From Lytechinus variegatus (taxonomy: Eukaryota > Echinodermata > Echinoidea > Temnopleuroida > Toxopneustidae): a DNA stretch of 64,000 bases. Location: the NCBI RefSeq assembly GCF_018143015.1, contig NC_054750.1, positions 9,328,501 through 9,392,500 on the forward strand, written 5' to 3'. The first letter of the stretch is position 1. Every line of letters begins with the position of its first letter. Below are positions 9,101 to 58,700 of this stretch, piece by piece. The position numbers and the translations under genes were made by a program. Below the pieces are notes generated by a model that had not been told where the DNA came from, searched no databases, and saw only the letters and a list, made by a program, of their open reading frames with translations.

Positions 9101-12100
9101 ATTTTAAAGTTTCGCTTAATTTCACAAAACAGTATATGCACATCCTGGTCGGTATGCAAATAAGGAGACTGATGATGCCATCAACTCACTATTTCTTTTG
9201 TATTTTATTATATGAAGTATGAAATATTCTAATTTTCTTCTCATTGTTTTTTTTAAACAAGTGCACACCTAGTTACCAATAATGCATATAGCATTTCCAT
9301 TTATTGTCAAGTGAAACAATGATTAATTCCTCCCTGAACATGTGTAATTAGAATTGTTTAATACTATATGGTTCAGTCAAGTTGGTCTAAATTGTCAAAT
9401 CTGTAAAAATTGAAATATTGTATAATTCAAACAATAAAAAACAAAAGAAATAGTGAGGGACATCATAAACAAACTGAGTTGTGCATACATGTATCACTGT
9501 TATGTGAAAAACAAGCAAAAGTGTAAAATGACATAACTTTCGTATTCTACATCCGACTTTGATGACATTTTTACCATTATGCTGGTTTTATTTTCTCTAT
9601 TTATTCAAATCAACATTTTTCCAGGATGGATTTGACCTTTAATGAAAAGGATTGCTAAAAAAAATCCGAAACCATTTGTGTTGTAAGAAAGTAAGACAAT
9701 GAGTTGCTTCAACAAATTCTAATCCAATGGCCATTTTTGTGGGCAAAGGGGTGTTTTCTTCATAATTCTTCATGAAAATTTTTTATGGTCATTTTATTTT
9801 CCATCTCTTCATAATGATCACTGTAATAAAGCCAACAAGTGGAACGCCTCTGGCAGTCTCGCCTGCATCGCGCGATTCAATATAGCAGCAGTGCTGATTT
9901 TGAAAACTACTATGGAATAATTATTCACAAAAAACACCATTCATAAAATGATACAATACACAACAAAAGTAGACACAGTTTTTAATGGCCTCGCAACAAT
10001 TTACCCAAGAATTAACTTGGAGCCAGAAGATATAAATGATATTAATGAAGCCTTTTCATTCTGAAGAAATGATTCGCTTTTTTGGGGGGGAGTTCAATGT
10101 TATAATTAAAGGGGTCCTCTTCATACACTTCATCACTGCGTTCACCTGTTAGTTTCTTTTTCAAATCACTGGAATATTCTGCAAAGTAGAAGAGCGCCCT
10201 CTGTAAATCAGCTTTGCTCTCATCAGCCCTGGCTTCAAAAAGGTCGTAGCTGAGGGCATTTGGACCACTTCCAACTGTCAGGAGGACTTTATGGTTCTGG
10301 AGTGTCACTGTAATGTCCCCAGCTCTGAAAGCATTGCTGTAGGGAATAAAGTGGATAGACAATGGAACAGTGCATGCATCAGCGTGATGTTATATTTTTA
10401 TTTATTTTTTATTTATTTTCAGTTTTATTTAATCAGGGTGGCCTCATCAGTTAACAAACTGCTGTCCTTGAGGGCCCTGAGATAAAAATCAATATGTACA
10501 ATATTTACAAAGAATGAATACATAAATCAAAATGGCATACACTAAAACAGTAAATAAAAACATTTAAAAAAAAATCTAATAAAAGATCAACATTGAATTT
10601 CAAGAAACAAAGGAAAAAGAAAAGGCTATCGGAAACTGCTACATACGATTTAACGGGAGAAGGATGGATGACTGGTGACAGAGTTATGTTCACATTGATT
10701 GATAATAATTTGAGTAGAGATTGTAATGTTTATATCGTGGCTGGATCACTACAGAGAGGGTGATCGACTGCCCCGCCCCCCCACCCACTCCCTCCCAATC
10801 TCCCATGAATATATTTTCAAGTGGTCGGTGTAATCATGTGATGTAAAAAATTTTAAAAAGGAACAAATTAAGTAAAAGGAAGAAACAGAGAGATAGGGAA
10901 GTCAAAATAGATTAAGTCTTTGGATTGCCAATTGTGTTAAATCCTAGTAAATAAAACTCTAAGGCCTGTATTCTGAAGTCAGGTATAATTTAAACTCTGG
11001 TCTAAAATTGTGTTTAACTATGGACAGCCAATCATGACATAAATCTCTAACAGAAGATGTTCATAGTATCAGCTCATTTGACTCTCAGATCATTCTAAAT
11101 AGTCTGAATTGACAAGATAATTGTCTTCACCATTAAAACACATTAGGAAAGAGCACAGTAAAACTAAGAAGTATACCATGTGAACAAATTTTGATGTGTT
11201 TGGCTTACCATAATTATAGCACAGGGTTAGACCGCAGAGTCTAAGCTAAACACGAGTTCAGTATACGGACCTAAATAGTTTACTGATAGCTCCTGAATCA
11301 ACCTGCTGTTATTCATTTTGTTGAATAATGAAATAACTTACAATACAATGTGAATAAACTTGAAAAATAAGAAATCCTTCAAAGTTTTTCTAGTTTATTT
11401 TGCCATCTTTGCTATTGGGCTTTTCAATAAAAGAGACATTTTTCAGTTGATCTGACAAAAAAAAAACCTAAAATGAAAAATGAATTACAAAGCTGAACTA
11501 TGACATTAATGAACCAACCTGAATCTTAAAAAATAAGCCTCATTTGTAGTCACATCTGCCAAATCTCTCTGAAAAAAGAAAAGATACCAGTAATATTCAG
11601 TGAACTGAAGGTGATGACATAACAGAATGTTGAGAGAGAAAGAGAGTGTGTCAAAGAAAAAAATAACGACTAAAAGGGAGAAGGATGGAAATAAAAAAAG
11701 AATGAACAACAGAAAGACAAAGTTTTAAAAGTTTATAAAAAGAAATATGGAAAAAGAAGCTGCTGAAAACTGCTTATCTAAAAAAAGAGCCAATTGGGTA
11801 AATTAGAGAGTCAAAAGGGGCCTAAGCTTTCGATCCTAGCAGAATCTTCTTCGGAGGCAAAAGGACCAAAAGAAATATGAGAAAGAAAGATTAAAGAAAG
11901 AATGGTAGAACATAAAAAAAGACAGAGAGAAGGGAATAAAGGAAGCAAGGTGATTATATTAATACTGTCAAAACCAGTATAAGTGTAAAATGCATGTTAA
12001 GAAAATAAAATCAGGAACCCTCTCAGTGCTTTTCAAATTAATAATAATAATAATAATTTGATACTTATATAGCACCTAACAAAATTTCTCTAAGCGCTTT

Positions 12101-16032: not shown

Positions 16033-30452
<14,420 letters not shown>

Positions 30453-41294: not shown

Positions 41295-53781
<12,487 letters not shown>

Positions 53782-54026
53782 GACTGCAGTATTATGGGAT
53801 AACGATGACCTAGCGCTGCTGACGTAATGATTACAAAAAATACCCGGATGAAGAATTCTCTTACAACGTATTTTCAAGAAAAGAAACTCCTTATTAGTTG
53901 AATAGAATTGTAAAATCAATTGATTATTCTCTTAAACTATAGTTAGAATCATTATTATCTAACCAAAACCAGAAAAGAACTAAATTTTGAAAGTATATGC
54001 GAACTTGTGGACTGCTGATCAATTGA

Positions 54027-54034
54027 CCAATCAG
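54027..54034 (+). promoter_or_regulatory. CCAAT box
   Basis: GACCAATCAGAG contains the full NF-Y core CCAATCAG, 59 bp before the X-box-like motif in the MIER1/DNAI4 divergent region. NF-Y is a known partner of RFX at cilium and MHC promoters. Functional use is inferred. Confidence 0.45.
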
Positions 54035-54085
54035 AGAGCATACAATGGTGACGTATGCGGTGGCAGAAAACTATATCCCAGTCAC

Positions 54086-54099
54086 GATCCCATGGCAAC
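54086..54099 (+). promoter_or_regulatory. X-box (RFX binding site), near consensus
   Basis: GATCCCATGGCAAC matches the RFX X-box RYYNYYATRRNRAC at 13 of 14 positions and carries the strong half-site ATGGCAAC intact. RFX factors drive cilium genes, and DNAI4 is an axonemal dynein subunit whose presumed first exon begins just downstream. The match is seen; the role is inferred from the family. Confidence 0.55.
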
Positions 54100-54250
54100 T
54101 CGGTCGGCTTCGGCTTGCAAGTTTCTCGTTGTGTGGATCGATTGGATCGGAGCGCTCGCGCGGAGGAAAAACAACACGCTGATTTTAGCAAGTGGGACTG
54201 TACCGAAATTTCCGTTCTGCTAGTGCTACTGCTAGCTGCTGCTGTAAAGT
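54100..54250 (+). other. Probable DNAI4 5' UTR exon
   Basis: A strong donor (AAGT followed by GTAAGTAACT) at 54250/54251 and the lack of a coding upstream exon joining in phase suggest a non-coding first exon. The next acceptor is at 55774 (TTCTCAG), 22 bp before the ATG at 55797. The transcription start cannot be placed, so the left edge is a guess. Confidence 0.4.
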
Positions 54251-54575
54251 GTAAGTAACTAGTAAGCATTAATTAAGTAGAGATTTTTCTTTTGATTACA
54301 AACATAGTAGAAAAATGAAATTATTTGTAGGCTGCATCAAAATATCCCAAAAGAAATGTAGGCCCTAAAGGCAAGCCAAAAGGAAATTTAGATCATTTGC
54401 AAATCATTTATTTTTTTAATTGAATTGAGGAACAAAATTAATTGTGAATGGGAGTTGTGTGTGGCACTGCCAGTGCCACTGCCTGGCATGACACTGATGA
54501 TAGTGACAGCCAGTGACGAGTAAACCCAAGGCAAGGCCAAGCCTAAAAGAGGGCAGGTTTCGCGGCCGGAGCCCA

Positions 54576-54973
54576 GGGGCCGATTGCACGAAGGGGGGTC
54601 TTTCTAGTTTCTACATCACTCAACATGCTCAAAGTAACTAAGAGTAAGACATCAGTACCGTACATCATGTTCTAAATCTAAGGCCACACACAGCCGTCTT
54701 TTTTGTCTGAATATGCAGAATATTTCTGGAATGTATGATATGATAAACAAATAAAATTTGTTAGCTTAAATAGCTACTAAGGCTTAAGCTGGTATTATTT
54801 GTAAAAAATATGATGCAACACTCACATTTTATAATTTGTTTACTTTAGTCTTTAGTGGATGAATGAAATATGTTTGCAGGTAGGCCCCTAAATGTGTTTC
54901 ACATGGCGCATCATAATAAAATGGGTGACATGAAAGACGATTCTTGCAAAGACCCTTTCGTGCAATCGGCCCC
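54576..54973. mobile_element. 398-bp MITE with GGGGCCGATTGCACGAA ends
   Basis: GGGGCCGATTGCACGAA is mirrored by TTCGTGCAATCGGCCCC. The GGGTCTTT block next to it is also mirrored (AAAGACCC). It lies in the presumed first intron of DNAI4. Confidence 0.88.
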
Positions 54974-55015
54974 AGAACTCATCCGTGTAAACTAGGCAGA
55001 CATGTCATGGGTACT

Positions 55016-55400
55016 CTCCAAAATGGGGTCGCAATAATAGCACTCCAAATAAAAGAGGAAAATTAATTATGCACTTAACTCGATTAGCCTATAATATGGA
55101 TGAAGGTCTATCGTGACACAGAATCCTGACAATCGAGGCACAAACTGGACCCTCAAAAAAGGGAAAAGTTAGACCTCTACATCATGTCATGTTCATTCTT
55201 GCTATCGATTGGCCATTTTGTTTTCTATTTTAAAAGGAGAACAAACGAGACAGAACTTTTCCTTTTTTTGAGGGTCCAGTTTGTGCCACGTCAGGATTCT
55301 GTGTCACGATAGACCCACATCCATATCAAGGTAAGTGCATAAGTTTCCCCCTTTTATTTGGGGTGCTAGTATTGCGACCCCATTCTACCCCATTTTGGAG
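55016..55400. mobile_element. 385-bp long palindrome (MITE)
   Basis: Arms include CTCCAAAATGGGGTCGCAAT, GGTCTATCGTGACACAGAAT and CACAAACTGGACCCTCAAAA, each found inverted on the right side. The right arm has a small insertion (ATTCTACCCC). It lies in the presumed first intron of DNAI4. Confidence 0.88.
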
Positions 55401-55468
55401 AATACACTTTGCCTAATATTATTTCAATCCATATCCATCCTCCGGTTAGCCTCAAAATTGGTGATTTA

Positions 55469-55668
55469 GAGCCAACATCAAGTTCCTCACACATGAATAA
55501 TTCGCTGCCGATTTCAAAACATCGCATGCGCGAGGGTCTGAGCTCGGACCCTCGCGCATGCGATGTTTTTACCATCGGACACAGACTCGCCTTGCCATTT
55601 CTTTTAAACGTCTCATTTGAAGCCAGTTCGAAATTCCTCACACATTAATTCACTGCCGAATCCAAAAT
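55469..55668. repeat. Direct repeat pair flanking the hairpin
   Basis: TTCCTCACACATGAATAATT and GCTGCCGATTTCAAAA (about 55483-55519) recur as TTCCTCACACATTAATTCAC, TGCCGAATCCAAAA (about 55633-55667), framing the hairpin at 55516. They may be the ends of one element or a small duplication. Confidence 0.55.
55516..55569. repeat. Perfect 23-bp stem hairpin, GC-rich
   Basis: AAAACATCGCATGCGCGAGG plus GTC is followed by the 8-nt loop TGAGCTCG and the exact complement. It lies 228 bp before the DNAI4 start codon and contains the NRF1-like CGCATGCGCG on both arms. Confidence 0.92.
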
Positions 55669-55796
55669 GGCGAACGCGGATTGCACTATCGCGGGGGTCA
55701 CAGTAGTGCAATTTACCTGTCTGCATAAATCTGTTGTACTGCATATGACGATATTTGATCTTTTCTCTTCTCAGGGTCTGATAATTCACAATAACC

Positions 55797-58700
55797 ATGC
55801 TAAAGCTTCCTGGAGGACAGAATGCTTCCAGCGTCATGAAGAGCAGCAAGATCAGTGGTTCAACTAGCCAGAATCGAATTGGCAAAGACCGTAATGTGAC
55901 CCTAGGCATTGGGTCAAGGACAACCCTGAACTCCAGCAGAAAGAGCCAAGTTGGGATTGATAGCAAAACAGAACACCACAAGCTTCCAGGGGCCAAATTC
56001 CATAATATCCAGGTGAAACATTTGTTTATAAAGTCATTGGTAGGGGAAGGCGGGGTAAGTTGTGACAGTTTTTGCTTTTTGCATGTTAGAATTGATATGA
56101 TTAATAATCTTGTCGAAATAAGTACCTTGCCTTGAAATTTAATTCTTCTGAAATATTTTCCACCTATATATTCTGTTTCTGTTTCTGTTTCTGTTTTTGG
56201 TAACTCCCGTATAGGAACTCGACAGGACAGCACTTTGCTGGTAAACGCCAAGCTGGTGTATAACCAATTACCTATGAAACATTTTACGTCTAGATTAATC
56301 AGTCATAGTGGCTGACGTTATAGACGACAGATATCACTCTCGGGCCTTTTTATCAAAGTGGAAACAGTGGCAGAGTTGGGATTCGAACTCACAACCTTGC
56401 GATTATGAGTCCAATGCTCTAACCACTGGACCACACGACCCGTATAACTTTCTATCCCCACACTGAAAGTCATCGTGACCTTTGAAAAAAACGATGTCAA
56501 ATGGCTCAACTTGCCCCATATATGGGGTAAGTTTGAGCCACCTTCTGGGGCAAGTTGAGCCACAAAAACTATGTACAAAATGTATGCGGAGAACCAGCAT
56601 GTCAATTTTTTTATTAAAGTCTTTTCACTTGCTAATTCTATATAAATACTAACATCCTTTAAGAGGAAAAGTGCAGTCATGTAAATTTGCTCCTTTCAGC
56701 CAGCATTTCAATTGATTTTTATGGTTTGTTTGTTTTTTAAGATACATTACCATAGGAATTACCATGGCTCAACTTGCCCCATGCTGTTTGGCTCAACTTA
56801 CCCCAGTCCGAACTTAGTGTGATAATTTTGTATCCACACATTTATTATGCATCCATCATATAAAAGACTATGACAAGAATGAAGATCCATACCTGGACTA
56901 ATAATGTTGTTATCATGTCTTTATTATATTCAAAGACGTGTGTGTTTATAAAGCACTTATCTATTTCACACTCTTTTTTACTTTTTTGGCTGAAATTCAT
57001 GTTTTTCCCTCTAAAAAACTACTTTTTGTTTCAAAGTTGAAAACAATGTGGTGGGGTTAGGGGTTATGCTATGGGTCATCAAGACATGACACCACCACAA
57101 GGTCTGACTCATTCATTATTGGCCTGGGGCTGGTGGCTCAACTTGCCCCTATGCTCAACTTACCCCGCCTTCCCCTAATGTTTGCTACAACAATTTAGGT
57201 TGAAGTTGACAGATGCATAGGAGCCCCTTGATACACTCTACAGTACTTGTGATAATTTTCAGCCACTGGAGTCTTTTACCAAAGAAAAAAAAAGAAAGTG
57301 AATGATGTGAACTGAACTGAGATTCTGATTACAGTACTTTAACCATTTAAATGGCATTATATTTATTGTCCAGCTAAAATGCATTGCCATCAGCATCCTT
57401 GTTTGCTTTATTCTTTTTATTGGTTCTTTTCTCTCTTGAAACTAATGGAAGTTTTCAGAAAAAAAGAAAATTCTGCAGAAAACAATCACACATTTTTTAA
57501 GAATACATTTACGCTCATGAATAAGGGAATTATTTTACTTCTATAAATTTGATTAGCATATTTTGGTCAGTGGGAAAAGATGACACTGCCATTCTGTAAA
57601 GTCCTACATGTACAGTACATAAAAACTTGCTACACAAAAGAAATGTTGTGTATCAGTGATTTAAAAAATGCATAGCAAATTGCAATGCAATACCAGAAAA
57701 AAAATACCACTTTTACCACTTCCCTTACATATTTTGGGGAGAATAGAAAACACCAATTCTCTAGTGAAGATGACTTTCTCAGCCCATAAAATACTACATT
57801 AAACTTATAAAAGGTTGACATTTTTTTTGTACTACAGATCACCTGTATTTTTTCTGCAGACCCAGATGGATGTTCACCCCGCCATAGTTTGATGGGTGTA
57901 GAATTACAACAATGATAATTGTAGTGCCATAAATGCTTGAGGTACTTATGAGTTAGAAAAGTTGATAAAAAAGGAGAATGGAATATCTGTTATTCAACAT
58001 AAACTGTCACAGATGTAACTTTTGTTTGCTCTTAAAGCATACATGCATGCGATTATTTATGCTGATCTAGCATTTCATGATGTTCTGACATCCTCTGTGC
58101 AATGTAGGTATTAGACGATGAGGGCCAAGATGTCACTCCACAGCCCCTTATTGCTGCAGATCCCTCCTCAGTCAAACAACAACAAAGCAAGCTTTTCAAT
58201 GCTGGTGAATCAAGCCATGGAACAGTGAGTACCTCTGTCCCTCTTATGTATGATTAAAGTTTAGCTTGGAATGGGAGCCAGGCGGGCTGTATATTTCTGA
58301 AATTTGAAATTAATGTAACTTGGCCGAATCTTGATAAGACAATTCTTTTGGGACCAGTCACCATAAAAGTCTGTTTTACTTGAGAAGCTTGACTTAAAAG
58401 AGGTCTATTACACATGTTTTGCATGATCTGGTCATAATAAACAAAAGTTTTTTTACTTCGGCAAATATTTGACATATGATGTTGATTTGTGCAAACAAAT
58501 TATCTACAGGTATTGTATTTCTCAGAAAGAACTTAGATTCTTCTTTTAAAGGGGAAGTTCACCCTGACAAAAAAATTTATTGTAAACTTTGAGAAATATT
58601 CATCAATTAATTAAAAAGTTATTAGAGTTACAATTATTTGATTTGTGACGTCATATGCGAGCAGCATTCATACATAGCGAATGGTAAAAAAATCAAAGAA

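Follow-up and report, generated by a model that had tools for sequence, protein, structure and literature searches.

Does the close divergent pairing of a MIER co-repressor gene and the axonemal dynein gene DNAI4 (WDR78) in a sea urchin reflect one shared promoter, and has the pair been kept from echinoderms to human? The question is raised by a 64,000-nucleotide stretch of Lytechinus variegatus DNA (NC_054750.1, positions 9,328,501 to 9,392,500 of the forward strand, on what is here called contig 11), which we refer to as the window and number from its first letter. The original prediction held that the two genes are head-to-head here as in human, with about 2 kb between their start codons, and that a tie lasting over 500 million years suggests a shared regulatory element or an inseparable promoter. 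Our analysis indicates that MIER and DNAI4 probably share a single CpG-island bidirectional promoter, of at most ~470 bp.

Identity and spacing of the divergent genes

A complete MIER gene was recovered on the minus strand, running from 53781 to 41295 as ten coding exons (1578 nt, 525 amino acids, one terminal stop) with GT/AG borders at nine of nine introns. For its 25-bp microexon, a search by splice site and phase left a single candidate (50053-50029), whether or not residue composition was used as a filter. Pfam searches of the predicted protein identified ELM2 (E 1.8e-9; 38.8 bits against a cut-off of 21.7) and MIER1_3_C (PF19426; E 8.8e-8; 32.6 bits against a cut-off of 27), the latter aligned only to positions 1-51 of its 216-position profile, and Myb_DNA-binding scored 18.9 bits, under its cut-off of 24.4. 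The SANT stretch matched the SANT domains of RERE, RCOR and MTA1 in solved structures (best E 1.3e-10), with no MIER chain among the 14 solved-structure matches to it, and a search of NCBIfam, a prokaryote library, gave no match. As judged from this domain order, ELM2 followed by SANT/Myb together with a MIER1/3 C-terminal domain, the protein is a member of the MIER family, which the last of these domains separates from MTA, RERE and RCOR.

The DNAI4 gene begins with an ATG at 55797 on the plus strand and ends ~21 kb past the window, at about contig 11:9413824. Exons assembled from the window and the ~21 kb beyond it match the solved chain 8j07_k2 (Dynein axonemal intermediate chain 4), which we take to be human DNAI4, with E 2.4e-192 over query residues 110-774 of 778. 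Among the chains of entry 8j07, DNAI4 scored 644 bits, compared with 230 for DNAI1, 101 for DNAI2 and 45 for DNAI3. The second-best match, 9fqr_Hx (633 bits), is labelled CFAP100 and aligns like DNAI4, the label presumably being a slip, and no Pfam family scored above its cut-off in the first 570 residues. By these matches the plus-strand gene is DNAI4/WDR78, closer to DNAI4 than to DNAI1, DNAI2 or DNAI3.

With both identities supported by Pfam and structure matches, the predicted head-to-head arrangement is borne out at this locus. Although the 2,015 bp measured between start codons agrees with the ~2 kb originally given, that figure is misleading, ~1.5 kb of it being a probable DNAI4 5' untranslated region (UTR) intron. 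The stretch from 54251 to 55774 resembles such an intron, and the intergenic promoter interval is therefore at most 469 bp (53782-54250). The MIER translation start (53781) and the end of the predicted DNAI4 UTR exon (54250) stand less than 1 kb apart, the transcription starts themselves being presumed. Two open frames within or overlapping the stretch between MIER and DNAI4 have no Pfam match; the two genes are divergent neighbours with no gene between them, as is required of a bidirectional promoter. Adjacency inside one genome admits no chance test.

A CpG island and the case for a shared promoter

CpG islands are typical of head-to-head bidirectional promoters. The observed/expected CpG ratio is 1.15 in 53783-54250, compared with 0.45 in the whole window. 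To place this value, 2,472 windows of 400 bp were scanned over 124 kb of the first of two copies of the locus on contig 11 (described below), passing those with a ratio of at least 1.0 and at least 10 CpG, and merging passing windows. Ninety-nine windows passed, yielding 19 merged stretches, the longest of which covers the interval between the genes (Table 1). Its counterpart in the second copy (contig 11:13255501-13257850) is also the longest in its 120 kb. By composition, a single CpG island spans the interval predicted to contain both starts, as in known bidirectional promoters. The interval further contains an NF-Y-type CCAAT box, an RFX X-box-like site and a cAMP response element (CRE)/ATF-like site, all unchanged in the second copy.

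The shared-promoter model is based on the divergent genes, the single island, a strong splice donor at 54251, and the CCAAT and X-box-like sites present in both copies. Transcription would start inside the island in both directions, with general factors such as NF-Y holding the promoter open for a broadly expressed MIER, and with RFX (through the X-box) and FoxJ1 raising output toward DNAI4 in ciliated cells and in sperm. Should the human pairing be inherited and not coincidental, the genes would have stayed together because separation would cost at least one of them its core promoter; a need to express a co-repressor jointly with a dynein chain would not be the cause.

The ciliary side of this model has precedent in the FoxJ1/RFX-regulated genes of motile cilia, among which fish DNAI4/WDR78 and its fly orthologue are named targets (PMC3493443, PMC3414849). 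Zebrafish wdr78 is induced by both sea urchin and placozoan FoxJ1 (PMC3493443), and the fly orthologue CG13930 belongs to the genes whose expression is lost or strongly lowered when fd3F is mutated, in a study whose title names cooperation with Rfx (PMC3414849). The X-boxes of validated human RFX targets lie mostly less than 500 bp from the start (PMC5838959). By comparison, factor binding at the X-box-like site of our locus is putative.

The shared regulatory element of the original prediction is consistent with the CpG island, and more weakly with expression in colorectal cancer, where a set of nine prognostic genes, selected from 113 candidates, includes MIER1 and WDR78; each is lower when survival is poor and declines as clinical stage advances (PMC9373052, whose passages on the two make no mention of them as neighbours). 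A joint fall would fit a shared promoter, but would fit equally a shared deletion or copy loss. Among the open-access papers listed by our searches, supplements excluded, we found no treatment of MIER1 and WDR78/DNAI4 as a promoter pair.

Several observations weigh against the shared-promoter model. The island reaches ~1.6 kb into MIER intron 1 and is off-centre on the shared interval. The X-box-like site has mismatches at 2 of 14 positions to the consensus used; an equally good X-box occurs in 93 of 2,471 sampled 468-bp stretches, and one that good together with a CCAAT box in 32 of the same 2,471. Across the window neither motif is in excess of shuffled sequence (28 X-box-like sites against 26 expected; 4 CCAAT sites against 3.9 expected), and the motifs were picked after the sequence had been read. 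Similarity between the copies is too high to reveal constraint, the promoter core (53774-54250) having 3 mismatches in 477 bp compared with 0.9-1.1% in two flanking introns. Finally, neither WDR78 nor MIER1 is named in the main text of any of the three RFX papers searched, PMC5838959 among them.

Other candidate signals were set aside. The window count of TGACGTMA was 12 compared with 1.9 expected, with none of 100 shuffles as high; however, five palindromic TGACGTCA sites, scored on both strands, account for 10 of the 12 entries, and a single entry (53820) falls in the promoter interval. X-box-like sites near 24935-24989 were rejected as a second promoter, since they lie inside a palindromic element resembling a miniature inverted-repeat transposable element (MITE), at 24880-25040, which carries X-box-like and CCAAT sequences. 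Within a DNAI4 intron beyond the window (contig 11:9406293-9406886, or 77793-78386 when window numbering is extended), four perfect X-box palindromes and one with a single mismatch occur at 77793-78373; this cluster was set aside as an apparent repeat, the second copy having no site of the same grade at the corresponding place. Scans of the window for tRNA and Rfam families gave no match.

The foremost alternative is passive linkage, by which the genes stayed or became adjacent with no common regulatory element, two compact promoters lying close by chance. Head-to-head neighbours are common, with 45% of genes in the compact Amphimedon genome potentially divergently transcribed and bidirectional promoters reported for 32.2% of Drosophila genes (PMC4773876), and the chance-level X-box-like and CCAAT counts are equally in keeping with it. 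Against it stand the interval of at most 469 bp and the single CpG island over it. The identified flanking genes (PAXX, DIMT1-like, RAD23-like and NDUFB6-like) are not known to neighbour the human pair, with the possible exception of the Tctex-1 gene described below, and retention of the MIER-DNAI4 pair alone, if confirmed, would favour constraint over passive linkage. On balance we consider passive linkage unlikely, at roughly one chance in four.

It is very improbable that the co-repressor has been inseparably coupled to the cilium programme by functional need for >500 million years: the RFX-like site between the genes means that MIER could receive ciliary input, but a response of MIER to FoxJ1 or RFX has no support in this analysis and vertebrate MIER2 and MIER3 are not known to lie beside a DNAI4 partner. 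In Drosophila, CG13930 and the MIER orthologue are presumably on different chromosome arms. If so, the pairing is not inseparable, and that part of the original prediction is unsupported.

A second copy of the locus and its surroundings

Searches of the organism's own genome (869.6 Mb, 33 contigs; match counts are lower bounds) revealed that the locus occurs twice. At least 16 matches to MIER were obtained; every one lies on contig 11, where they form two groups of eight, 3.87 Mb apart in the same orientation. A query of the C-terminal 404 residues of DNAI4 returned at least 24 matches, 22 of them on contig 11 with 11 at each of the two MIER places, and two weaker matches on contig 5, presumably to a paralogue. 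The head-to-head arrangement is present in both copies. Alignment of 124 kb with 120 kb was collinear, in pieces, from 8251 up to 104000 (extended coordinates), where the compared DNA ends, with a divergence of 2.09% (1,377 mismatches in 65,794 aligned bases over 19 collinear pieces of at least 1 kb, a figure that excludes shorter pieces and off-diagonal repeat matches) and many insertion differences. Over its 1578 coding bases, MIER has 5 differences between the copies, with one residue change (A510T). Footprinting of the promoter between copies was abandoned for too few differences, 54001-54250 having no mismatches and two indels only.

The first 8 kb of the window have no collinear match within the compared DNA, though genes further left are duplicated. 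Similar offsets were found for a muHD gene (7.68 and 11.60 Mb), the RAD23-like gene, a Tctex-1 frame and anonymous DNA (10.50 and 14.34 Mb), so that offsets run from 3.83 to 3.92 Mb over sampled places spanning 2.8 Mb (7.68-10.50 and 11.60-14.34 Mb). This ~3.9-Mb same-orientation duplication most likely represents two haplotypes assembled in tandem, a real tandem duplication being the less likely alternative, and it matters for any copy-number or synteny use of the assembly. The second copy lacks, at 14.338 Mb, a ~187-bp element that lies at contig 11:10503387-10503573 and has dozens of near-identical copies genome-wide; the matches on either side overlap there by 8 bp, resembling a target-site duplication.

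Table 1. Features of the MIER-DNAI4 locus. Positions are in window numbering unless given on contig 11; a point marks features with no strand.
Feature	Position	Strand	Basis or remark
Presumed bidirectional promoter and 5'UTR starts of both genes	53782..54250	.	CpG content
CpG-preserved island	52151..54450	.	Longest of 19 stretches; covers the whole of 53782-54250
CRE/ATF-like site TGACGTAA	53820..53827	+	Motif scan
NF-Y-type CCAAT box GACCAATCAG	54025..54034	+	Motif scan
RFX X-box-like site GTTGCCATGGGATC	54086..54099	-	12/14 against consensus
MIER coding exon 1	53781-53773	-	ATGGCGCAG, then gtaagt; encodes Met-Ala-Gln only
MIER coding exons 1-5	53781-53773, 50053-50029, 49510-49377, 48609-48378, 47607-47531	-	Splice-consistent open reading frame
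MIER coding exons 6-10	46234-46165, 45142-44991, 44477-44301, 43566-43439, 41868-41295	-	Splice-consistent open reading frame
Predicted DNAI4 5'UTR intron	54251..55774	+	Donor GTAAGT at 54251; acceptor CTTTTCTCTTCTCAG (ctcttctcag) ending 55774; read from sequence
Nested foldback inverted repeats, MITE-like, inside predicted UTR intron	55011..55405	.	Inverted-repeat pairs I1, I2, I3, I6, I9
Second foldback inside predicted UTR intron	55516..55569	.	27-nt arms, no spacer (pair I4)
DNAI4 first coding exon	55797..56012	+	72 amino acids
Further DNAI4 coding exons	near 58108, 60527, 61126, 62719, 63532, continuing beyond window	+	
PAXX exon	10042-10389	-	Pfam; MIER side
RrnaAD methyltransferase exon	21688-21939	+	Pfam; MIER side
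Tctex-1 open frame, 344 amino acids	contig 11:9326506-9327513, just left of window	-	C-terminal Tctex-1 domain; second copy 98% identical
RAD23-like gene	contig 11:9317327		XPC-binding domain
NDUFB6-like gene	right of DNAI4		Identity from a separate match, not from the NDUFB6 family search

Among the neighbouring genes (Table 1), the RrnaAD exon presumably belongs to DIMT1. Family searches for NDUFB6 and NFI gave no match and are uninformative, as no positive control matched. The Tctex-1 frame is a possible DYNLT5, the human WDR78 neighbour printed as TCTEX1D1 in the gene list of PMC11412739, but its best solved relatives are a flagellar outer-arm light chain 2 and DYNLT2B, which leaves the orthology tentative. 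Two further Tctex-1 matches, at contig 4:17964186-17964467 and contig 4:20928228-20928509, have equal scores on the same strand 2.96 Mb apart, possibly another haplotype duplication.

A side observation concerns COX1 on contig 33, where TGA occurs in frame 12 times within the matched stretch. Its MNNMSFW stretch, which we take to be conserved in animals, is written with two AAA codons as Asn and one AGR codon as Ser; as read from these codons, the code is the echinoderm/flatworm mitochondrial one. The remaining COX1 residues look like those of an echinoderm.

Antiquity of the pair

The original prediction rested on the human genes being head-to-head, and MIER1 and WDR78 are presumably so oriented, with transcription starts a few bases apart. 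Their adjacency fits the gene order printed for a resting-heart-rate locus on human chromosome 1, namely LEPR, PDE4B, SGIP1, AL139147.1, TCTEX1D1, INSL5, WDR78, and MIER1 (PMC11412739). Deep conservation of the pair across animals is plausible and unproved.

Comparison with known systems places the locus among promoters of an established type. As in the CpG-island bidirectional promoters of Yang, Taylor and Elnitski (2008, PMC2423431), divergent neighbours have presumed starts less than 1 kb apart, although here the genome is that of an echinoderm and the starts are predicted. In that study, human bidirectional pairs less than 1 kb apart were retained in chicken more often than tail-to-tail pairs, and 60 of 821 human bidirectional pairs could be matched to an orthologous pair in each of the seven other species, as distant as fish (PMC2423431); a pair that extends to echinoderms would therefore be uncommon but of a known kind. 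The asymmetric bidirectional promoter of SERPINI1-PDCD10 likewise serves two unrelated genes in conserved tight linkage (PMC1796892), whereas in the present case one partner is a ciliary gene and the promoter is a predicted one.

Work on ancient metazoan microsyntenic pairs by Irimia and others in 2012 reportedly attributes adjacency across distant animals to cis-regulation. Its typical case is said to be a developmental gene and a bystander holding its enhancers, unlike a shared core promoter. A more far-reaching version of our model, in which the MIER-DNAI4 promoter unit dates back to the deuterostome (perhaps bilaterian) ancestor and was retained amid reshuffling of its neighbours, with RFX/FoxJ1 input making MIER a regular part of the motile-cilium programme, strikes us as improbable.

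As it stands, the locus provides one more head-to-head pair with a probable shared promoter, ordinary in kind and possibly ancient. Were the pair to be divergent across deuterostomes, it would show in a simple natural setting whether two functionally unrelated genes can be bound together for >500 million years by a shared core promoter alone. It would also caution that human variants close to the start of DNAI4 could affect MIER1 as well, and would account for the co-occurrence of MIER1 and WDR78 in a cancer expression list (PMC9373052).

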